Positions 5,208 through 22,323 of a stretch of 39,553 bases of DNA are shown in pieces. The stretch is from Candidatus Caldarchaeum subterraneum (GTDB lineage: Archaea > Thermoproteota > Nitrososphaeria_A > Caldarchaeales > Caldarchaeaceae), in NCBI GenBank assembly GCA_000270325.1, contig BA000048.1, positions 927,471 through 967,023 on the forward strand. The letters are read 5' to 3'. The position numbers and the translations under genes are program-made. How positions within the stretch are numbered: the stretch's first letter is position 1; each line of letters opens with the position of its first letter. The notes beneath the pieces are model-generated. The model was not told the origin of the DNA, made no database searches, and was given only the letters and a program-made list of their open reading frames with translations.

Positions 5208-5624
5208 TTGCGGATAATCCCAGTGATAGAGGTAAGGGTGAATAACGTTGCTCTAGGCCACGCCGTCGCCGATGACTTCAACAAGTATGGAAACTGCGAC
5301 GGGCATAACATCGTCGGTTTGGTGGCTGAAGCTCATCTCGTGAAGAGGCTGAGAAGCATGGGCTACGAAGTAATGCTGGTGTTAAGCCACAATCTTGAGA
5401 TAAGGAGCATTAAGAGGCAGGGGTTCTCCTACGATTGTGTTGGCGAATATGGTAAAGTCTTGGAGAAGATGCCTGCTGAGTTAAAGGCAGTTGTAGAGGA
5501 GATGTGCGAGAAAGGGGTTGATATCGAGATAGAGGATGACGGCGACGTGCCTATCTACCTAGAGGGGAGAATGCTGTTTAAAACCAGCTTCAAAAGGACA
5601 CTTCTAAAGCTTATCGCTGATTAA
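5208..5624 (+). CDS. Hypothetical protein, 138 residues
   Basis: No family recognised. The frame starts at TTG 5208 (MRIIPVIEVRVNN) close behind a TATA box. Features: a GHNIVGLVAEAHLVKRLRSMGYEV segment that alternates helix and strand, two cysteines (GNCDGH and YDCVG), and an acidic patch IEIEDDGD near residue 108 that might bind metal. No membrane or signal segments. It lies alone between two decayed genes. The palindrome at 5136-5149 may control it. Confidence 0.55.
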   Translation: MRIIPVIEVRVNNVALGHAVADDFNKYGNCDGHNIVGLVAEAHLVKRLRSMGYEVMLVLSHNLEIRSIKRQGFSYDCVGEYGKVLEKMPAELKAVVEEMCEKGVDIEIEDDGDVPIYLEGRMLFKTSFKRTLLKLIAD

Positions 5625-11936: not shown

Positions 11937-12293
11937 CTAGATTTGGCCAGGCTTGTTTTTCTGCGTTGGTTTGTTGATTTTGACCAGAGTGGTTCTCTTC
12001 CTGTAGACCTCTAGAACATCGTCTGTCACCACGTGAATCTCAAACGGGTCTCGTATACCCTCCCGCCAAAGTTCTGCAAGAACCTCGCCCGGCTTTTTCT
12101 CTGTTACAACAAGTATGTCTATATCGCTTGAAAGTAGGTGTCTGTTCTCTGCAACGCTGCCGAAAAGATAAACCTCTGCATCTGGGTCAAGTTTCGCTAC
12201 GACTGTTGCCAGCTTCTCCAAGTATTGCTTCAGGTTTCCGAACACCTCCGCTCTGCGTTTAGCCTCTCTAACCAAGAATTCTGCCGACGACAT
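11937..12293 (-). CDS. MNT-type nucleotidyltransferase antitoxin (second pair)
   Basis: 118 residues with the nucleotidyltransferase signature VYLFGSVAENRHLLSSDIDI followed by LVVTEKKPGE. The Gly-Ser and Asp-x-Asp positions are intact. It begins with ATG 12293 inside the end of the upstream HEPN gene (26-base overlap). It would AMPylate or otherwise block the HEPN toxin of its pair. The C-terminal tail is short and basic (NKPTQKNKPGQI). Confidence 0.8.
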   Translation of the reverse strand: MSSAEFLVREAKRRAEVFGNLKQYLEKLATVVAKLDPDAEVYLFGSVAENRHLLSSDIDILVVTEKKPGEVLAELWREGIRDPFEIHVVTDDVLEVYRKRTTLVKINKPTQKNKPGQI

Positions 12294-12660
12294 TCCGAAC
12301 CTCCTCCACGGTGTTTTTCAACTTCTCAACCTCCACGGCTGCATATGTTCTGGTAACGTATCGTGAAGTAATGTAAGCGTCCTCCAGTGAGCCTAGCTCA
12401 ACAGCATATCGCGATAAAATCTCTTCAATATCTCTATGCCCGGTGACGTCGCGTATAAGTTCTAAGGGCTTTCTCACGCTGTGTGTTCTCGGGTAGTCTA
12501 TTCCGAGTCGCAGAAGACATGCCTTCAGATAGAGTTGGAGAGACTGCTCTAAACTGAAGACTGCGAGGTCATAAAACCCGCGGCCAACCTGCATAAGGGC
12601 TGTTTCAAAAAACCACATCGACCTCTCTAACAAGCGCGCAGCATCCTCATAGCGTGTCAC
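12268..12660 (-). CDS. HEPN-domain toxin (second pair)
   Basis: 130-residue HEPN protein. Visible: YEDAARLLERSMWFFETALM, LAVFSLEQSLQLYLKACLL and the catalytic-type YPRTHSVRKPL (Arg, His). I chose GTG 12660 rather than GTG 12678 because the TATA box TTAAATATTT at 12691-12700 would start transcription near 12670, which lies downstream of the longer start. It is only distantly similar to the 8518 HEPN, so the two pairs are not recent duplicates. Confidence 0.75.
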   Translation of the reverse strand: MTRYEDAARLLERSMWFFETALMQVGRGFYDLAVFSLEQSLQLYLKACLLRLGIDYPRTHSVRKPLELIRDVTGHRDIEEILSRYAVELGSLEDAYITSRYVTRTYAAVEVEKLKNTVEEVRNVVGRILG

Positions 12661-12690
12661 ACGAAGTCCTCGGCCCACTTATGACCCGGC

Positions 12691-13570: not shown

Positions 13571-14179
13571 TCACGTCACCAATTCATGTTTTGACACAAT
13601 TCTGGAGACGAGTTCGGTGAGAATGATGTAGAGCGGTTTTCGGGCGTTTTCCCTCACCTTTTTTACCCATTCGCCTACCCAGCGGGAGAGATGTTCTCTG
13701 TAGAACTTTCGCCGGGCGTCGCGGCATATTTCGGCGGCTTCGGTGTTGGAGTTTTCATGGGCCAGCAGCTCCTTCACCATTATCAAGGCCATGAACTCTA
13801 GCTCGGCTTTTATGTGGTCCGGTGTTCCGGTGGACTGCTTAACGTTGAAGGCTCTGTAGAAGCCCGCTATGTCCGCCAGCTCATATGTCCTGTGCTCCAT
13901 GTTTTCGGCACATGTGTATGCTGTCTCGCACGGAGGCGCGGCACCCATCTCAAACAGACGAACATACTCCGCTGATGCATTCTCATCTGACTTGATGATG
14001 TTTATCACGTTATCCGCTAGGTTTGACTCCTCGGTCATCCCAAGCTTGTCGAAGATTTCTCTGAGGGAGTTGACGGATTTCTGGATGGTTTTTGGGTCTG
14101 ATGTGAAGCTGGATGAGAGGAGGCTGTATATTGCTGCTGTGGTCAGCAGCCTTGACTCGTAATTCTTCAAGGTGCTCAT
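13571..14179 (-). CDS. TorD/DmsD-type molybdoenzyme chaperone
   Basis: 202-residue all-helical protein of the TorD/NarJ chaperone family. It has the family core EYVRLFEMGAAPPCETAY (usual form EYxRLF...P...Y), a helix TPDHIKAELEFMALIMVKEL that matches the DH-x-x-x-ELEF-M signature, and a C-terminal helix near SRWVGEWVKKV. Such proteins bind the Tat signal of the catalytic subunit and hold it until the Mo cofactor is inserted. It is the last gene of the alpha-beta-gamma-delta operon, 8 bases after the gamma gene, as in ebdABCD. Confidence 0.8.
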   Translation of the reverse strand: MSTLKNYESRLLTTAAIYSLLSSSFTSDPKTIQKSVNSLREIFDKLGMTEESNLADNVINIIKSDENASAEYVRLFEMGAAPPCETAYTCAENMEHRTYELADIAGFYRAFNVKQSTGTPDHIKAELEFMALIMVKELLAHENSNTEAAEICRDARRKFYREHLSRWVGEWVKKVRENARKPLYIILTELVSRIVSKHELVT

Positions 14180-14187
14180 ATTCGGCT

Positions 14188-15186
14188 CTACTCTACATAG
14201 AGTGTGTGAAGCATGCTGGGGTTTTTCCTAGCTCCTCTGTCGCCCTGGTCCCCGAACCAGACTGTGAATGCCACGGAGTAGGTGTTGCCCCTCTCGATGT
14301 TTATCTCGCCAGCGGTTTGGTCTGAGGCTTTCATCTTCTTGGCAAGAACCACACGCCACACTCCATTTCTCCATCTTCCCCAGCCGACGGCATCCTGAGT
14401 GGGCAAGGTTGTCACTGTCGCAGGCCCCTTGGCAATTATCTTCTCAACAGGCTTCTCTTTCTTGGGCTGGGATATTGGGTTGCCGACCCATGTCCCCGGC
14501 AGCCTAATTCGTGCAAAGTCGGGCAGGTCTATGGTTTTGGGAGGCTTTCCACCGGTTATGGACTCTTTCAGAAGCGGGTACATGTCTGCGGAAACGTTGG
14601 GGAACGCTTTTTCCAGGTCTTGGAAACCTTCTTCTATGTCAACCTGCCAGTCAGCTTTCCAGTGAAGTATAGTGGCGGGTATTGTTTGTGTGCCCATGAA
14701 CCGTGCCTCCGGCGGCGCTGGATAGCTCGTGAGCATAACTGCGCACGCGTCCCTGAACTCGGGAACCTTAATCGCGCTCGTGTTGGCTATGTCGTCACGC
14801 CATTCCAGCAGAAACCCGATAAACTCGCCGTCATGAGCCGCGCGCACGTTGAGAGTCTCCTTGGGGACGCTCAGCTTGAGCGGCCTGATTATGGACTGGT
14901 CGGCCAAGCTTATTCTGGAGAGAGGCACGTTGTCCCATATGGGTGAGTCGGGGTCTTTCACGGGAACCTTGTCCACTAGACGGGCTGTTACATCGGGCCT
15001 TGGTCCCTGTGTCTGAGTGGGTTTGGGCGGAGATATGGTCTCCTGTATCTGCCTGTAGAAGGACGCGGATAGGGCGATGAATAATGATGCGCCAGCCAAT
15101 ACGGGCAGGAATAAACGGTCCGCTGCACCAGCCATCCGCGCCACAACTGCGCGTCTACTCTTTTTATCTGACGCCATATTCGCCAC
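14188..15186 (-). CDS. Heme-b gamma subunit of a type II DMSO-reductase-family enzyme
   Basis: 332 residues. An N-terminal membrane anchor (LFLPVLAGASLFIALSASFY, residues ~26-45) precedes a domain of the ethylbenzene-dehydrogenase heme-binding family. Visible: VRAAHDGEFIGFLLEWRDD, FRDACAVMLTSYP, ILHWKADWQ and the closing WGRWRNGVWRVVLAKKM, FTVWFGDQGDRG. In EbdC/DdhC/SerC/ClrC relatives one b-heme is bound with Met/Lys ligands and passes electrons between the iron-sulfur subunit and a periplasmic carrier. The membrane anchor should place it outside the cytoplasm with the Tat-exported partners. It lies 2 bases after the beta gene. Confidence 0.8.
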   Translation of the reverse strand: MANMASDKKSRRAVVARMAGAADRLFLPVLAGASLFIALSASFYRQIQETISPPKPTQTQGPRPDVTARLVDKVPVKDPDSPIWDNVPLSRISLADQSIIRPLKLSVPKETLNVRAAHDGEFIGFLLEWRDDIANTSAIKVPEFRDACAVMLTSYPAPPEARFMGTQTIPATILHWKADWQVDIEEGFQDLEKAFPNVSADMYPLLKESITGGKPPKTIDLPDFARIRLPGTWVGNPISQPKKEKPVEKIIAKGPATVTTLPTQDAVGWGRWRNGVWRVVLAKKMKASDQTAGEINIERGNTYSVAFTVWFGDQGDRGARKNPSMLHTLYVE

Positions 15187-15188
15187 CT

Positions 15189-16343
15189 CTAGGTGATGTT
15201 GTGTCTATAGACTTGAAGCCTGTCGTCATAGAAAGGTCTCACCACGGCTGGTTCCTTGATGGGAATCCTAACAACTTCGTGGCCGTTCTCATCGTATCCA
15301 GCCACCTCGCTTGAGCCGATTACCTTGAACTTGGTCATTATCCTGTCGGTTGACACGTTGAGGAGAAGGGCTGCCACCAGCTCGATGTCCTTGCTTGCGA
15401 TGGCTTTTTTGTAGGTTTGAACGGCTTGGTCGACGCCGGGTCCGAAAAGCATTCTCAGGAAGTTGATGTTGCCCACGTGTATGGGCGGTATGTAGTAGAT
15501 GTTGGGCTCAAGCCCCAGCTGTGGAAGCAGCGGAAGACCAACCTTCTTGACGTGGACTAGGAAGTCTAACGGGTTCTCTGGGTCCGCGTTTTCTGGCGTG
15601 TGGAGGTAGCCGAACATCCTAATCTTGCCAATACATGTCCTCATGCATCGTGGCCAGATACCTTTTTCGACGGCGGGGTAGCAGAGAACGCATTTCTCGG
15701 AGATGCGTGTTACATGGTTGTAGAAGACTTTCTTGTAGGAGCATGCCTGGACACACTCCCTATAACCCCTGCATCTCGCCTGGTCTACGAGGACAATCCC
15801 GTCTTCAGGTCGTTTGTAGATGCTGAGTCGGGGGCATGATGCTAGGCATGCCGGGTAGGTGCAGTGGTTGCATATGCGTGGTAGGTAGAAGAACCAGAGG
15901 TCATGTGGTAGCCTCAGATAGAATTTCTCCTCCACCAGTATCTCGTTTGTCTCATCCTCGCCTCTGTTGGGATATGCATAGTCTAGGTCGCTTGGCAGAT
16001 ATCCTAGGACACGTTCACTAGGGCTAGCCGCCTCAAATATCGTCTTACCCTTGTACACATATCTATCGCCTTCGCGTTCCCACCTCTGTGGCCCTAGCAT
16101 TTTGAGAATATTGACATCCCAGCCCATCGGATAGGAGCCCCACGGCTTGGTCTCCACATTATTCCAGTACATGTACTCCTGTCCCTTCCCAGAGGTCCAT
16201 GTGGTCTTGCATGCCACGGTGCATGTCTGGCATGCGATACACTTGTTGGTGTCGAAGACCGCTGCAGCCTGCCTCCTCGGCCTAGCTCCTTCATACCAGT
16301 AATCCATCTCCCGCCCAATCTGCCAATTATACACCTTCGGCAT
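15189..16343 (-). CDS. Iron-sulfur beta subunit of a type II molybdoenzyme
   Basis: 384 residues with four cysteine groups in NarH/EbdB order: CIACQTCTVACK, CNHCTYPACLASCP, CRGYRECVQACSYKK and CVLCYPAVEKGIWPRCMRTC. In this family they hold three [4Fe-4S] clusters and one [3Fe-4S] cluster; the tyrosine in the CRGY group is typical. Conserved NNVETKPWG near the first group also matches. It carries electrons between the Mo site in alpha and the heme in gamma. It has no signal of its own, so it would be exported with alpha by the Tat system. It starts 1 base after the alpha stop. Confidence 0.88.
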   Translation of the reverse strand: MPKVYNWQIGREMDYWYEGARPRRQAAAVFDTNKCIACQTCTVACKTTWTSGKGQEYMYWNNVETKPWGSYPMGWDVNILKMLGPQRWEREGDRYVYKGKTIFEAASPSERVLGYLPSDLDYAYPNRGEDETNEILVEEKFYLRLPHDLWFFYLPRICNHCTYPACLASCPRLSIYKRPEDGIVLVDQARCRGYRECVQACSYKKVFYNHVTRISEKCVLCYPAVEKGIWPRCMRTCIGKIRMFGYLHTPENADPENPLDFLVHVKKVGLPLLPQLGLEPNIYYIPPIHVGNINFLRMLFGPGVDQAVQTYKKAIASKDIELVAALLLNVSTDRIMTKFKVIGSSEVAGYDENGHEVVRIPIKEPAVVRPFYDDRLQVYRHNIT

Positions 16344-16344
16344 C

Positions 16345-19300
16345 CTAAATCACCTCCACATACTGACCGGCCAGATACTTCTTCACCTCGTTGCTGGCGT
16401 ATGCTGGCCTAAACCCTGCCGCAGCAGGGCTCCACAGGCCTTTCCGGTCTTCTCCACCGGGCTCCGCCCTAGTTATCTTGACGAAAGATTCCTTAGGCGC
16501 TCCAATAACTTGATGGACGTCTAGGGCGAAGCCTTTCCCTATGAGCTGGCCGTAGTATTCTTTTCGGACTAGGCTGTCGGTTTGGAGTGTGGGTTTAAGC
16601 CATGTTCTTGTGGTGGATTGATGGCTTCCGTATCGGTAGGCTGCCTGATACCCGGTTCGCGGGTTTTTGGCGAGGCCGTCGGCTCTTTTCTCATGCGCCT
16701 CCACCGAGCCATGTGTTGCGACGTAGAAGTGGAACCATGCACGTGCCACGCCGGGCGCTATGTTGGGGTAGTGGCGGGCCCTAACAAGCCATCTGAAGAC
16801 CTTGTAGTCCTCGGGCTTGTCTGTCCATCCGACGAAGGGCCTGTCCGACGGGTCCGCATCACACCACACATAGTCTCCGTCCTCGATTCCCAGCTTCTTG
16901 GCCACTATCGGGTTTATGTCTATGTATCCTTCGCTCACCCACGGCTTCCGCTTATCATGGCGGTAGAAGTCTCCGAACGGTCCGAAGAAGGTGGCCTCGA
17001 GGTCTGTGCTGGCCCCCATGCTGTGACACGCGTGTCTATACTTTGGTGTGACGAGGATGTGGCCGTATCCCATGTCCACGAGCGGGTGCTTGGTTTCTCT
17101 CACCTCCTCCCAAGGCTTGACAACATTCCTCACCTGCCTCACCTCGGTGGATAGGTCTCCGACAGGTATGCCGTAGTCGCTGGGCAGCTTCGGCTTGAGG
17201 GCTGGATGAGGCTTAGAAACTATTACGTTGGGCTCGTATGGCGTGTTGTCTATAGGCTCCCTGTATACGGGCAGGTTTTCGCCATACTCTATGAACTCAT
17301 CCTCCTCGCGGTAGAACTCGAGACGCCCAGTCTTGGTGTACCATGGCCTGCTCTCGTTGGTCTGCTCCCACCCAGTTATTCGTGGACTTGTTCGAACCAT
17401 CATGAGGAAGGGTGTGCCTTTTTTGCAGCTCTCCTCCAGCTCCTCAAACCTGTAGCCCTTGGTTGTGTTACCGGCTTGGAAGACCCTGTTCAGGTAAACC
17501 TCCACCTTGTCCTCGTAGACAAAATGCCAATAATCTCTGAAGCGTCTATCACCTGTTAGCTCGGAAAGCTTCTCCGCAATACCCGCCAAAACCTCCAAGT
17601 CATCCCTTGTATCATATATCCGTGGCAGCGGTGTCCTAGGCCACGCTTGGAGGAACGGGTTTGTCACCGAGCCGTACATGTCGGGCTTCTTCCTCTCAGC
17701 CCAGCTGTCCACACCGAAGACCACGTCAGCGTATTCGCAGGTCGCTGTCCAGAGCCAGTCATTCACAACTATCATCTCAATCTTGGGCAATGTGTTGACC
17801 ATGATGTTGTGGGCCCACTTGCTGTTGCCTAGTATGGAGTTGGTGTTGGCCCAGAAGGTTGCCTTGGTCGGTGAGGGCATGTGGGTCTTTCCTGTGAAGA
17901 GTCTGCCGCCTATTCGGAGCGGCCTGTCGTCGTATGCGTAGTAGTGCGCCGACTCCTCCTTCCAATACTTTTTCTGCCGCGCTGGTTTGGATGGGTCTAG
18001 CTCGGGGTTGAACGGGTCCTCGGTAACCCACTGGAGAACACCGTTGAGAAGCTCCATCCTGTAGTTGCCCGCGTAGCTGCCCACGGTTCCGCCGAAGTGG
18101 CCGATATTGTTGGTGAGGCTGGCCACAAGAATAATTCCTCTGTCCTTCAAGTCGCTGTGGTAGAAGTGGTTGGGCCCCATACCTTCGACGAAAAGTGTTC
18201 TGGTCTTGTTGGCCGCTATGAGACGGGCCAGCTCCTCGATAGATTCTGGAGGCGCCCACGTTATCTCCGAAACCGTGTATGGGTCGAAAGCCTCGAGATA
18301 TTGTTTAATCAAGTCGAAGACAGGCCTAACCTTGACGGTTGAGCCGTCGACAAGCTTAACCTCAAACTCGCCTTCAAGCGCCGGGTCAACATCCAAGCCG
18401 GCGAAATATTCTCCAACATGGTTCCTGGTAACCACCAGAGGCTGTCTTGTTTTATAATCCCACACCATGAAATCATCCCACTCAACCCGGAGCTGCTCCG
18501 GGATTATCTGGTCTTTCTGGAGCGCGATTGGAGGAGGTGATTCTCCGGGTTTGAGGACTTTGGTGAAGTTGCTGAGCTGCGAAGGAGTGTAGCCTTCGAT
18601 GACATCGCGCGCGTAGGAGCTTGAGGTTATCCATCCGCACAAGCAGCGGCAGGTCGGTGAATGACTTGACAAACTTCTCATCATACAGTCTATCCCTTAT
18701 CAGGACATGGGCCAGCCCGAGGGCGAAGGCCTGGTCTGTGCCCGCTCTTATGACGATGACGTAGTCGGCTTTGGAGCTGCTGGACTGGTATTCAGGCGCA
18801 ATCGTAACTATCTTGGCACCCTTCAGCTTCGCTTCTGTAAGCCAGTGGCCGTCAGGCATCTTGGTTGCAATCCAGTTCTTGCCCCAGAGTATGATGACCT
18901 TGGCGTTTTCAGCCGTGTAGAGATCAAAGTCCAGAGTCTTGTTACCCGTCACCATGGGGTGGCCGGGCGGCAGGTCCGTGTGCCACGCATAGTTATCCCA
19001 TCCCCGAGAGCCTTTCGCCTCATCCGGGCCCACACCCCTAACGTATGCGTCGAGCAGCGCCATCATGTTGGCGAAGCGGTAGAACCCGCCTATCCTGATG
19101 CCTGCGTTGTAGGGCATACCTCCTCTGAACTTGATTGTTTTTGTGCCAGCCCCCTCAGTCGACTCGACCATGGCGGGGTCGTATCCCTGGGCCAGAAGCC
19201 TAGCCTGCCCCTCCTGTCCACTATAGGTCGCGACTATGTTTAACAAGGTCTGTGCCACTATCTTGAACGCCTCTTCAAACGGGACCTTCACAAACTCCTC

Positions 19301-19822
19301 CTTACCGCGTCCCGAGAAATATTCACGGGGCGGCTGACCTGTCGCAGGGTCGCGTGGATATCCAGCGTCCACCCATTTCTTGAACCCCGCCCTCACGTAG
19401 GCGCCCTTTATCCGCCTGTCGGAGTAGAACCTTCTCACATAGGAGAGGCCGCTTATGCACGCCCTCGGGTCCCATCTAGACGATGCCCTGTTCCCATAGA
19501 TGTCGGTGGCTTTCCCGTATCCAAAGGATGGGTCAGCATATATCACGACCCCGTTCTTCACGCTTGCTCTGAGTAGACAGCCGTGGGTATCGTTGGGTGC
19601 ACAAAGATAGTGGAAAGTGCTGTCAGGTGTGTATATGTCCCTGTAAACTCTCTCCCAATCTCTGTACGGATATGTTGTGAGGGGGTTGATGTTGGGGTCT
19701 ATCGGCTCAATATACTCGAATGCTAGAATATCGTCTGGAAGCATCGCCAACACAGCGGCAGAAAGCGCCGAAGAAGGGACGAGCGCTAGGAAATCTCGCC
19801 TACTCAGTCTGAGACCTCCCAT
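16345..19822 (-). CDS. Molybdopterin catalytic alpha subunit, Tat-exported (split by a frameshift)
   Basis: The two frames 19822-18482 and 18684-16345 together make one type II DMSO-reductase-family alpha subunit of ~1160 residues (NarG/EbdA/NxrA size). It begins with a Tat signal (LSRRDFLAL). The first iron-sulfur region reads CAPNDTHGC, then CISG ~35-40 residues later, so one ligand position is Asp. The [11 protein letters not shown] segment and [16 protein letters not shown] are the Mo-cofactor region. The frame changes at CGCGCGCG (18606-18613): read through, the sequence [14 protein letters not shown]...LKLL continues as [16 protein letters not shown] only after adding two bases or removing one. 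Likely substrates in this family are nitrate, nitrite, chlorate, selenate, DMS or hydrocarbons; sequence alone does not choose. The upstream regulator and dyad at 19862 suggest control by redox state. Confidence 0.8.
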
Positions 19823-19861: not shown

Positions 19862-19875
19862 CCTAACAAGTTAGG
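19862..19875. promoter_or_regulatory. Perfect palindrome in front of the alpha gene
   Basis: CCTAAC-AA-GTTAGG, a 6-bp perfect dyad with a 2-base spacer, lies 40 bases upstream of the alpha start. On the minus strand a TATA-like TAATATTTT lies ~20-30 bases further upstream, so a bound protein would cover the transcript start. A related dyad lies in front of the regulator gene at 20590. Probable operator for the neighbouring HTH_10 regulator (inference). Confidence 0.5.
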
Positions 19876-19893
19876 CTGTTTGAGTGGAAAATA

Positions 19894-20571
19894 TTAGGAT
19901 GTGTGGTTTATCTCATCATGTTTCTCAAGGCTGCCGGCAAGCGTCACATGTTCCTTAACAATCCTCTTCATAGCCTTTCTCATGGTTTCGGTTAGTGTGG
20001 CCGGTGTTATGCCGAAGAGTTGGGCCAGCTCCTTCACATGTATCTTCTTGGGGTAGTCGAAGAACCCGAGCTCGAGGGCGGCTTTTATTATCAGCTCCTG
20101 TCTGCTGGTGAGGCCTCCGTTAGGCTTCACAACGCATAGCTCCCGCGTCTCATACCTAATCCCCCTCTCAGAAAGCCTCTGCATAAACCTCCTCAACTCC
20201 GGGCCTGTCCCTATGAAGCTCCAGACAACTTCACCTCCGGCGCCTGTGCTTACACCCCTGAGAATACATGAACCAGCCTCCTCTATCCCACAGCCCCTGC
20301 CACACATCACCACAGCAGTGCCGTAGATAATGCCGCCACTGGACTTGACAGTGCGCAGTTCGCGGAATGATTTCTCGTTTCTGAGAAAAGATTCCACCTC
20401 ACCAACCTTATTGTCAGCCGAGATGCGGAAAAACTGGATTCTCCACCTGTCATCCACGGACTGCTGCTCAATCACCTTGGCGAAAAGCCGGCTATCCAGC
20501 CTTGAAAGCCTTGATAACCAACACACATCACCCGGCGTAGTCGAAATGGTTAACGCCATAAGCCTAGACAT
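19894..20571 (-). CDS. Bat/HTH_10-type regulator with a cysteine cluster
   Basis: 225 residues. The C-terminal HTH_10 domain is clear: LTSRQELIIKAALELGFFDYP, then VKELAQLFGITPATLTETMRKA. The N-terminal part has a Cys group MCGRGC...GSC (C-x3-C-x6-C, residues ~88-100). Known relatives, the haloarchaeal NarO and DmsR, are Bat-type regulators that control nitrate and DMSO respiration, and NarO depends on conserved cysteines. The location directly in front of the molybdoenzyme operon on the same strand supports an equivalent role. The ATG at 20571 is nearly leaderless behind a TATA at 20599-20607; ATG 20559 is an alternative start. Confidence 0.75.
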   Translation of the reverse strand: MSRLMALTISTTPGDVCWLSRLSRLDSRLFAKVIEQQSVDDRWRIQFFRISADNKVGEVESFLRNEKSFRELRTVKSSGGIIYGTAVVMCGRGCGIEEAGSCILRGVSTGAGGEVVWSFIGTGPELRRFMQRLSERGIRYETRELCVVKPNGGLTSRQELIIKAALELGFFDYPKKIHVKELAQLFGITPATLTETMRKAMKRIVKEHVTLAGSLEKHDEINHTS

Positions 20572-20572
20572 A

Positions 20573-20613
20573 TACTACATAGTAGGTGTATGCCTAACAT
20601 TTAAGGTTGGCAT
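20573..20613. promoter_or_regulatory. Two dyads over the regulator promoter
   Basis: TACTA-CA-TAGTA (20573-20584) lies directly in front of the start codon. ATGCCTAAC-N7-GTTGGCAT (20590-20613), an 8-bp dyad with one bulged T, spans the minus-strand TATA box CCTTAAATG. The second shares the half-site CCTAAC with the palindrome at 19862, which suggests that the same protein binds both and represses or tunes its own gene. Confidence 0.45.
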
Positions 20614-20760: not shown

Positions 20761-20900
20761 CACATTTTACATGGAAAAATAACCTGCCATATCTATTAAT
20801 CTTTACCTCGCAGTTCTCTGACATGAACCGGTCTCCATACTCTGGAATTGAGTAGGGGTCTTCCAGATTGCATCTATTCGAAAACTATGGGAGAGTGTTT

Positions 20901-22323
20901 TCATTCTACACAGCAGCTCATTTTCTCCACTGGTCTTAGGAATGCCTGTGCACTCAGTTTCAGGGCTTCTGCGTATGTTGGGAAGACGTGTATGGTGTCG
21001 ACGATGTCCATGAGTTTTTTTTCCGTATTTGATGTAGAGAGCCGCCTCGGTAATGTATTCGGCTGCGTTAGGCGAGACGATGTGCACGCCCAGAACTCTC
21101 CCATCATTAGGATTTATAACCAATTTGGCCAAGCCGCGTCCACCCGTCATCCTAGCCTTAGCCACGTTCTTCAGCGAGACAACTCTGCAAGAGCATGCAC
21201 CGAACCTCTTCACAACCTCCCTCTCAGTCAAACCCACCGAAGCCACCTGCGGCTCGGTGAACACCACCAGAGGAACAGCACCGTAATCCATGGCGGCCGA
21301 GCCCTCTTCAACGATGTTTGAGGCCGCCACCACGCCTTCACGCGCCGACAACGTCTCAAGCATAAGGGGTTTAGCTATGCAGTCGCCCGCGGCGTAGATG
21401 TTTGGTGAGCTGGTGCGCATCGTCTCGTCCACTTTTATGAAGCCGCGGTTGTCGACGGCTACGCTGCTCTTCTCCAGCCCCATTCTATCCGTGTTCGGTT
21501 TTCTGCCCGTCGCTATCAACACTGCGTCAAACTCTATGGTCTGCCTGCCCTCGTTAGTCACTATCTCAGCTTGGCCAAGGTCTCCATGTCGCGAGAACTC
21601 TACAACCCTAGCTTTAGTCATAATCCTCATGCCCTCGTCGGCTAGGATTTTTGATAGTGTCGATGATATCTCAGACTCCATATTAGGCAGAATTCTGTCC
21701 AATAGCTCGACCAGCGTCACTTGACTGCCCAGCCTCTGCATGGCCTGTCCTATCTCAAGCCCTACAGCGCCCCTGCCCACCAGCAGCGTGTTCTCGGGAA
21801 GGGTATCCATATCCCATATCGTGTCCGTGGTATAGTATCCATTCTTCTCCAACCCGGGAATGTTAGGTATGGCTGGCCGTGAACCGGTTGCTATCAACGC
21901 CTTCTCAAACTCGACTTCACGCACTCCATCACGTGTCTCCACAGCGATTGTGTGGGGTGAAGTGAATGAGCCGCGGCCCTCTATAAGCTCCACGTTCGGG
22001 TAATGCTTCAAGACATCAGCATACTTCTCACCACGCATAACGTCTACAAACCTTCGGAGGGATTCCATTAACTTGCCGAAGTCGAGGTCAGCTCCCTTGG
22101 GTGTAACTCCGTCAAACAGGGGCGTGTGGCTGCTGTGATAATGTTTGGCGGCCTCTATCAGGTATTTGGAGGGGACGCAGCCAACGTTGACGCATGTTCC
22201 GCCCAGCTTCCCAGCTGAAATCATCAAAATGGATAATTTATTCTCAGTTAGTTCGCTGGCTTTGATTGCGGCGCTGAAGGCAGCAGCTCCGCCGCCAATT
22301 ATAACTAGCTCGTATCTATTCAT
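20901..22323 (-). CDS. merA: MerA-like mercuric reductase flavoprotein (frameshifted near the C-terminus)
   Basis: About 473 residues when joined. FAD site [19 protein letters not shown], redox pair [22 protein letters not shown] site [15 protein letters not shown], second FAD motif IYAAGDC, and the dimer domain. Near the end the frame breaks in an A8 run (T8 at 21015-21022 on plus): removing one base joins YIKYGKK to [19 protein letters not shown] and the diagnostic vicinal cysteines MSCCVE, which bind Hg(II) before reduction. Without the correction the protein would run out of frame to 20803 and lose this site. There is no N-terminal heavy-metal domain. The gene may reduce mercury or a related metal; the HxlR regulator upstream is a candidate controller. 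Confidence 0.78.

Follow-up and report, generated by a model that had tools for sequence, protein, structure and literature searches.

The molybdoenzyme operon and its neighbouring regulator

The window, which is the whole stretch of 39,553 nucleotides from Candidatus Caldarchaeum subterraneum that was analysed (bases 927471-967023 of the genome), carries an operon for a molybdoenzyme and, beside it, a gene for a cysteine-bearing regulator of the HTH_10 family (Table 1). All four subunit models of the DMSO reductase family type II (TIGR03479, TIGR03478, TIGR03477, and TIGR03482) match the operon, and all four scores lie under the curated cut-offs; for TIGR03479, the cut-off of 984.75 bits is not reached by the alpha subunit, whose score is spread over the two frames of a split gene, and the alpha subunit of Haloferax larsenii scores 1418.2 bits. 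With scores below the curated cut-offs, nitrate is at most a candidate substrate of the window's enzyme. The alpha gene is undivided, as a single open frame, in three genomes of the order (G018, G024, and G006) and likewise up to the contig end in G004, and the split in the window is either a lesion or a sequence error.

Upstream of the regulator, at 20803-22323, lies a gene for a MerA-type mercuric reductase that scores above the cut-off of TIGR02053; the MerA match of G004 is broken into several frames (L043 1911-3413). At 11937-12678, a HEPN domain gene overlaps a nucleotidyltransferase gene, an arrangement resembling a HEPN/MNT toxin–antitoxin pair.

Table 1. Features of the window and placement of strict dyad sites in genomes of the order
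Feature	Genome	Positions	Strand	Evidence or remark
TorD/NarJ-like chaperone	window	13571-14179	-	PF02613 7.9e-20; TIGR03482 8.2e-18
Heme b gamma subunit, ethylbenzene-dehydrogenase-like	window	14188-15186	-	PF09459 7e-21; TIGR03477 1e-27
Iron-sulfur (4Fe-4S) beta subunit	window	15189-16343	-	TIGR03478 4.5e-78
Molybdopterin alpha subunit, two overlapping frames (18482-19822 and 16345-18684)	window	16345-19822	-	TIGR03479 183 and 135.3 bits
Dyad A, CCTAACAAGTTAGG	window	19862-19875	.	proposed operator of the molybdoenzyme operon, -53 to -40 from alpha start
HTH_10 regulator, 225 aa, NarO-like, C17, C90, C94, C102	window	19894-20571	-	PF04967 3.6e-17
Dyad B, corrected register, CCTAACATTTAAGG	window	20593-20606	.	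proposed autoregulatory operator, -35 to -22 from regulator start
N7 dyad of the earlier note	window	20590-20613	.	letters present; misregister of dyad B
Strict site, alpha	window			
Strict site, HTH_10 paralog/NirK-like pair	G000, G002, G003			
Strict site, hemerythrin beside regulator	G005, G006			site overlaps last codons of regulator gene
Strict site, terminal oxidase operon (CoxB/CtaD)	G005, also G006			G006: 76-aa first frame, under the cut
Strict site, NosZ/cupredoxin pair	G005, G006			
Strict site, second cupredoxin	G006			
Strict site, Fdh-alpha-like frame	G007 (L135)			243 nt before the frame
Strict site, 3' end of a frame	G005 C4			
Strict sites, inside genes	G014, G020			

The assignment of the regulator to HTH_10, made in an earlier note on this DNA, is confirmed: PF04967 is its sole Pfam family at E 0.001, and it has no PAS or GAF domain. 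Its cysteines follow the layout C17-x72-C90-x3-C94-x7-C102. The C-x3-C-x6-C cluster that the note had read is right in its first spacing and wrong in its second, which is x7 in the window and x6 in the relatives G005b and G006b, and C17 had been missed. In an alignment of seven sequences, C90 and C94 are invariant, C17 is without a counterpart in G005b, and C102 is without one in G007. The orthologous group, at E 2.3e-80 or better, comprises eight copies in 6 of the 44 genomes of the order; beyond the order, the best match among 398 sampled genomes of the phylum stands at 9.5e-35. An AlphaFold model built with three sequences has a mean pLDDT of 66.5, with the cysteine loop in a block near 53, and the PDB holds no sequence relative at E 0.1. 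The G024 ortholog (Ca. Benthortus lauensis T2-175; L048 5432-6085) contains one in-frame TAG, so that the gene is either broken or wrongly sequenced, or the codon is read through.

A hemerythrin gene follows the regulator in the relatives G024 (Pfam 6.5e-14) and G005 (9.6e-21), and a near-identical hemerythrin frame follows it in G006. Hemerythrin domains bind oxygen or NO, and their presence next to the regulator therefore fits the signal proposed for it below. Read from the cysteines and from these adjoining genes, the regulator may respond to redox conditions. An HTH_10 protein near the alpha operon of locus L091 is cysteine-free.

Dyad A and its conservation before orthologous operons

The dyad CCTAACAAGTTAGG, which had been reported before the alpha gene, is indeed there, 40 nt ahead of the ATG at 19822, and is the single zero-mismatch instance of CCTAACNNGTTAGG (CCTAAC-N2-GTTAGG) in the single-contig genome of 1,680,938 bases. 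When the 150 nt preceding alpha were shuffled 4000 times, none of the shuffles gave an equal match. With up to two mismatches, the pattern occurs at 33 sites genome-wide, of which 22 lie within open frames and 9 precede a frame, while the remaining 2 do neither; the variant CCTAAC-N4-GTTAGG has zero matches in the whole genome. Loose matches in the window (up to three mismatches) number 7 against 12.65 expected and are no commoner than chance, and the case for the dyads is one of position and comparison, not of local frequency.

Orthologs of alpha were found in 6 of the 44 genomes of the order, and in five of the six the dyad precedes the start by 48-55 nt. The earlier note had proposed that the dyad is shared between the regulator and the molybdoenzyme operon, and had named absence before orthologous operons as the result that would speak against this; what was found is its presence in all but one. 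The site lies at -53 with no mismatch in the window, at -53 with one mismatch in G004, at -55 with two mismatches in G006 (the same letters are present in G005), and at -48 with two mismatches in G024, counted from a TTG at 5260. Shuffled sequences matched as well in 20 of 3000 cases for G006 and in 134 of 3000 for G024, the latter drawn from the 110 nt upstream of 5251. The exception is G018, whose alpha gene has no dyad upstream (best site four mismatches, with 1900 of 3000 shuffles as good) and whose genome holds two HTH_10 genes and no ortholog of the window's regulator at E 1e-15. The regulator adjoins the alpha operon in the window, G004, and G024 and is one gene away in G005. The G005 alpha gene (L050 9523-10833) has a large internal deletion, with the upstream dyad intact.

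At the alpha gene of a groundwater archaeon (L063), the best site has three mismatches (416 of 3000 shuffles as good), and the regulator was not found on that locus. The best sites before the bacterial operons L064, L066, and L067 have three, five, and five mismatches, respectively.

Dyad B and putative autoregulation

The second dyad had been described as ATGCCTAAC-N7-GTTGGCAT spanning the TATA of the regulator. Its letters are present, and its register is rejected: the arms comprise nine and eight bases and pair only with a one-base bulge, the outer arm GGCAT reads GGTAT in G003 and G004, and the N7 pattern with up to three mismatches is no commoner in the genome than its reversed control (12 versus 17 per strand). 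Since the outer arm is changed in G003 and G004 while CCTAACATTTAAGG is identical, the shared element is the 14-mer, named dyad B here, all 14 bases of which are the same in the window, G004 (same family), and G003 (same genus). Dyad B has two mismatches to dyad A, with an equally good match in 17 of 4000 shuffles, and sits over the TATA-like ATTTAA at 20599-20604, a TATA assigned by eye. The G003 copy adds little weight, because there the promoter is kept beside a dead gene; the operon of G003 is lost, and what is left is approximately the first 40 regulator codons, together with pieces of delta and MerA (L044 3382-4853).

Within 100 nt upstream, three of the eight orthologous regulators have a site with at most two mismatches, and four of the eight have no site upstream of their own gene; the sole site of the G024 regulator, at -137, is common to alpha. 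The self-regulation proposed in the earlier note would on this count be supported for the window and G004 only, and perhaps for G007.

A wider set of dyad-marked genes

Further genes of denitrification and respiration carry the dyad as well, a point that the earlier note had missed. Sites with at most two mismatches lie in the 100 nt upstream of 9 of 29 HTH_10 genes, a collection of this and related groups in which some of the nine are mutually orthologous and start codons were set by rule; palindromes of any 6-2-6 form precede 7 of the 29 and were not counted as evidence. This frequency led to a strict pattern, CCTAAYNNRTTAGG (CCTAAY-N2-RTTAGG), with the same pattern reversed as its control.

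Across the 44 genomes, the strict pattern occurs at 15 sites and the reversed control at 21, and hence shows no overall excess. In the eight genomes of the window's family, the counts are 13 versus 4, and in the other 36 genomes, 2 versus 17. Placement, judged by a single rule for both, also separates the two patterns: a gene starts within 100 nt after 10 of the 15 strict sites and after none of the 16 control sites examined (Fisher approximately 7e-5, by hand), and in the family alone the figures are 10 of 13 versus 0 of 4 (Fisher approximately 0.015, by hand). The control sites scored were the 16 of 21 whose loci were classified, the other five being left out. Frames were subject to a cut of 80 aa, so that L139 (first frame 76 aa) as well as L135 and L133 were scored as not upstream, and L136 and L137 were scored as inside genes. 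That the dyads are chance palindromes serving no regulator appears highly improbable in this light: the motif is short, the strict pattern is outnumbered by its control over all genomes, and loose matches in the window stay at chance level, but the excess is confined to a family rich in HTH_10 genes, and the sites stand in promoters with respiratory genes downstream.

Six promoter types carry strict sites (Table 1), among them that of a NosZ gene (TIGR04246 1.3e-144). A perfect dyad, ACCTAATACATTAGGT, at 683905-683918 of G000 (L131) stands in the gap shared by an HTH_10 paralog and a divergent NirK-like gene, the latter followed by a cupredoxin gene, and this position would suit it to act on both divergent genes. 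In the order, six nosZ genes were found, and each is preceded by a dyad-like site at -68 to -59, strict in G005 and G006 and with three mismatches in G024, G007, G009, and G013. Shuffles equal the latter four in 532, 393, 256, and 348 of 3000 cases, respectively; as these sites are individually unremarkable, their weight is in the common position rather than in the match. NosZ has no match in the window's genome. The hemerythrin gene of G024 has CCTGACATATCAGG at -53 (49 of 3000 shuffles as good). Among seven NirK-like genes, those of G000, G002, and G003 are preceded by strict sites, that of G004 by a different palindrome, CCGTACATGTACGG, and those of G009, G010, and G012 by nothing notable. 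The sites before alpha, NirK-like oxidase, and NosZ genes are spread over different Caldarchaeales genomes. Looser sites in G000 lie before genes for NrfD and a Rieske protein, before an ArsR-like gene with a UbiA-family gene (CtaB-like by eye) behind it, and before a CTP-synthase-like gene (by eye), a phage tube gene, and the gene of a tRNA endonuclease, whose divergent neighbour is unassigned.

These genes bear on which protein would read the dyad. It could be an operator of denitrification and respiration genes that is bound by another regulator, such as an HTH_10 paralog or an ArsR-type protein, the adjoining regulator being merely a neighbour. Several HTH_10 genes occur per genome (three in G000 and seven in G005), strict sites precede cox and nosZ genes with no HTH_10 gene on the examined stretch, and the looser G000 site before the ArsR-like and UbiA-family genes points the same way. 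We nevertheless hold this unlikely, since sites are frequent before the HTH_10 genes themselves and since the sole alpha locus lacking a site belongs to G018, the genome lacking a regulator ortholog at the threshold given above.

Promoter geometry and a proposed mechanism

Fourteen promoters aligned on their dyads (alpha, hemerythrin, nosZ, cupredoxin, nirK, and ctaB-like) have a mean A/T content of 0.72 at 8-16 nt downstream of the dyad, compared with 0.57 at random offsets (14 of 20,000 draws as high), in an interval of +8 to +16 that was picked by eye. This A/T-rich stretch places the dyad just upstream of BRE/TATA, which is an activator's place. In the promoters of the regulator, an HTH_10 paralog, and the cox genes, the dyad lies by eye on or behind a TATA-like stretch, which is a repressor's place. 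The alpha promoter of the window has TATA-like candidates on both sides of the dyad, and the sign of control there is ambiguous because the A/T-rich stretch is also found upstream.

Repression of the molybdoenzyme operon by the regulator is another reading to be weighed. On this view TATA (CCTAATATTTT in the window) is upstream of the dyad, and the dyad, placed ahead of the start codon, would hold back initiation until a signal lifts the block. In the window, G004, and G024, a TATA-like stretch rich in A/T immediately precedes the dyad by eye, and at the regulator and the cox genes the dyad covers or follows a stretch of this kind. This reading is unlikely, however, given that the A/T stretch of the G006 alpha promoter (by eye) is downstream of the dyad, as in the nosZ, hemerythrin, and cupredoxin promoters, and that in Haloferax mediterranei, according to the available part of the published account, mutation of the denitrification motif lowered the activity of the nosZ and nor promoters (PMC10062603).

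The reading that we favour, and consider fairly probable from the comparison of genomes, is that the dyads are operators of NarO-like HTH_10 regulators controlling a denitrification and respiration gene set in Caldarchaeales. What the comparison establishes is the sites with their conservation and positions, the gene families, and the cysteine layout; the mechanism that we infer from them covers the binding itself, the HTH_10 protein responsible, the signal, and whether control is positive or negative. In it, a dimer of the regulator would bind CCTAAY-N2-RTTAGG. Where the dyad lies just upstream of TATA, as in the promoters of NosZ, hemerythrin, cupredoxin, NirK-like, and probably molybdoenzyme operon genes, binding would help to recruit TBP/TFB, and this recruitment would turn the genes on at low oxygen or with NO present. 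Where the dyad lies over or after TATA, as it does for the regulator itself, an HTH_10 paralog, and the terminal oxidase operon, a bound regulator would keep transcription from starting. Oxygen or NO may be sensed through a metal or a cluster held by the cysteines, or through a redox disulfide formed by them.

Several results count against this operator model: the strict pattern lacks an overall excess, half of the orthologous regulators and the NirK-like genes of G009, G010, and G012 are siteless, the G004 NirK-like gene has a palindrome of another kind, four nosZ sites are unremarkable, the hemerythrin sites of G005 and G006 overlap the last regulator codons, HTH_10 genes are several per genome, and C102 and C17 are not universal. 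To these are added, from the available part of the H. mediterranei study, the lack of a significant effect of the motif on nar and the absence of a NarO homolog (PMC10062603).

Comparison with haloarchaeal systems

A likeness to NarO and DmsR of haloarchaea, in another archaeal lineage, had been suggested for the window, and for NarO it is borne out by the cysteine layout and by the kinds of genes in the operon. NarO of Haloferax reportedly has a CXnCXCX7C motif and activates its operon under anoxia through its cysteines, and narO is said to be transcribed all the time. As a representative of NarO we took the regulator that occupies its place in the H. larsenii pHl5678-2 nar locus (L190), a locus found through its alpha subunit, the first haloarchaeal HTH_10 matches examined not lying beside nitrate reductase genes. 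This protein has an HTH_10-type C-terminal half, as does the window's regulator, and the layout C17-x63-C81-x-C83-x7-C91. A distal N-terminal cysteine, C17 in both, occupies the same MAFFT column, and the last C-x7-C is common to both by counting; MAFFT pairs C102 with C91 but C94 with C81, and hence the shared C-x7-C rests on the count. In a single-pair blastp comparison, the two regulators are 24.6% identical over window residues 93-205 (E 1.4e-11). Both regulator genes adjoin an operon encoding alpha, beta, an EB_dh-type gamma, and a TorD-type chaperone.

The differences are equally clear. The middle spacing is C-x3-C in the window and C-x-C in H. larsenii, so that the window's regulator departs from the motif attributed to NarO in having a middle spacing of three, not one. 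Unlike the haloarchaeal nar operon, the window's operon has no genes for a Rieske protein and a cytochrome b, and the window's regulator has a site over its own TATA-like stretch, in contrast to the constant transcription ascribed to narO. Because the cysteine spacing and the outer operator bases differ, the regulator is filed as NarO-like and not as NarO.

DmsR of Halobacterium is a bacterioopsin-activator-type regulator without PAS or GAF domains that is linked to DMSO respiration, and by that description it resembles the window's regulator. It is named in the available part of PMC11218638.

In H. mediterranei, the available part of one study (PMC10062603) describes a semi-palindrome, CGAAYATDKTYG (CGAACATGTTCG in the nos promoter), whose distance from the start is 79 nt for nirK, 66 nt for nor, and 69 nt for nosZ; mutating a motif of this type lowered nos (nosZ) and nor promoter activity, the nar promoter motif, at 319 nt, had no significant influence, and the genome yielded no homolog of NarO. 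As given in that part, the motif serves the same kinds of targets (nar-type, nirK, and nosZ) as the Caldarchaeales dyad, and its core, AACATGTT, is the core of the G005 and G006 hemerythrin site CCTAACATGTTAGG. In the nirK, nor, and nosZ promoters it lies 66 to 79 nt from the start, compared with 48 to 68 nt for the Caldarchaeales alpha, nosZ, hemerythrin, and cupredoxin genes, and its outer arms are CG...CG rather than CCT...AGG, so that the Caldarchaeales sites CCTAAYNNRTTAGG do not match CGAAYATDKTYG beyond the central AAC-N2-GTT. The gap before nar in H. larsenii matches the published motif only with two or more mismatches. The motifs are alike, but NarO as the reader of the haloarchaeal one is an assumption, and the H. 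mediterranei evidence, as available, cuts both ways.

A more general scheme can be put forward tentatively, and we regard it as doubtful: NarO-like HTH_10 proteins may be an old archaeal counterpart of bacterial FNR/NNR, in which one cysteine-based family, with an operator of AAC-N2-GTT core approximately 50 to 80 nt before the start, would run nar-type, nirK, nosZ, and hemerythrin genes in Thermoproteota and haloarchaea. It would activate or repress according to the place of the dyad relative to the TATA box, such that a single dyad between divergent genes would turn on nirK and silence the regulator gene. Control of archaeal denitrification is little known outside haloarchaea, and the present comparison suggests a broader scheme among archaea, of which the haloarchaeal switch is a single instance. 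Literature searches, covering titles and the beginnings of abstracts, with subscription papers mostly beyond reach, turned up no regulon of this kind. A defined 14-bp candidate operator, a target list, and a candidate cysteine-based sensor make control in Caldarchaeales testable in vitro, with nitrous oxide reductase and the respiratory molybdoenzyme as targets.

A second recurring element

An element like GTATGCAATTGTATGCA, recognised by eye, recurs before the regulators of G005b, G006b, and G007 (L047, L049, and L050), before the NirK-like genes of G004, G009, G010, and G012 (L154 and L156-L158), and before nosZ of G007 (L149). It is perhaps the operator of another factor.
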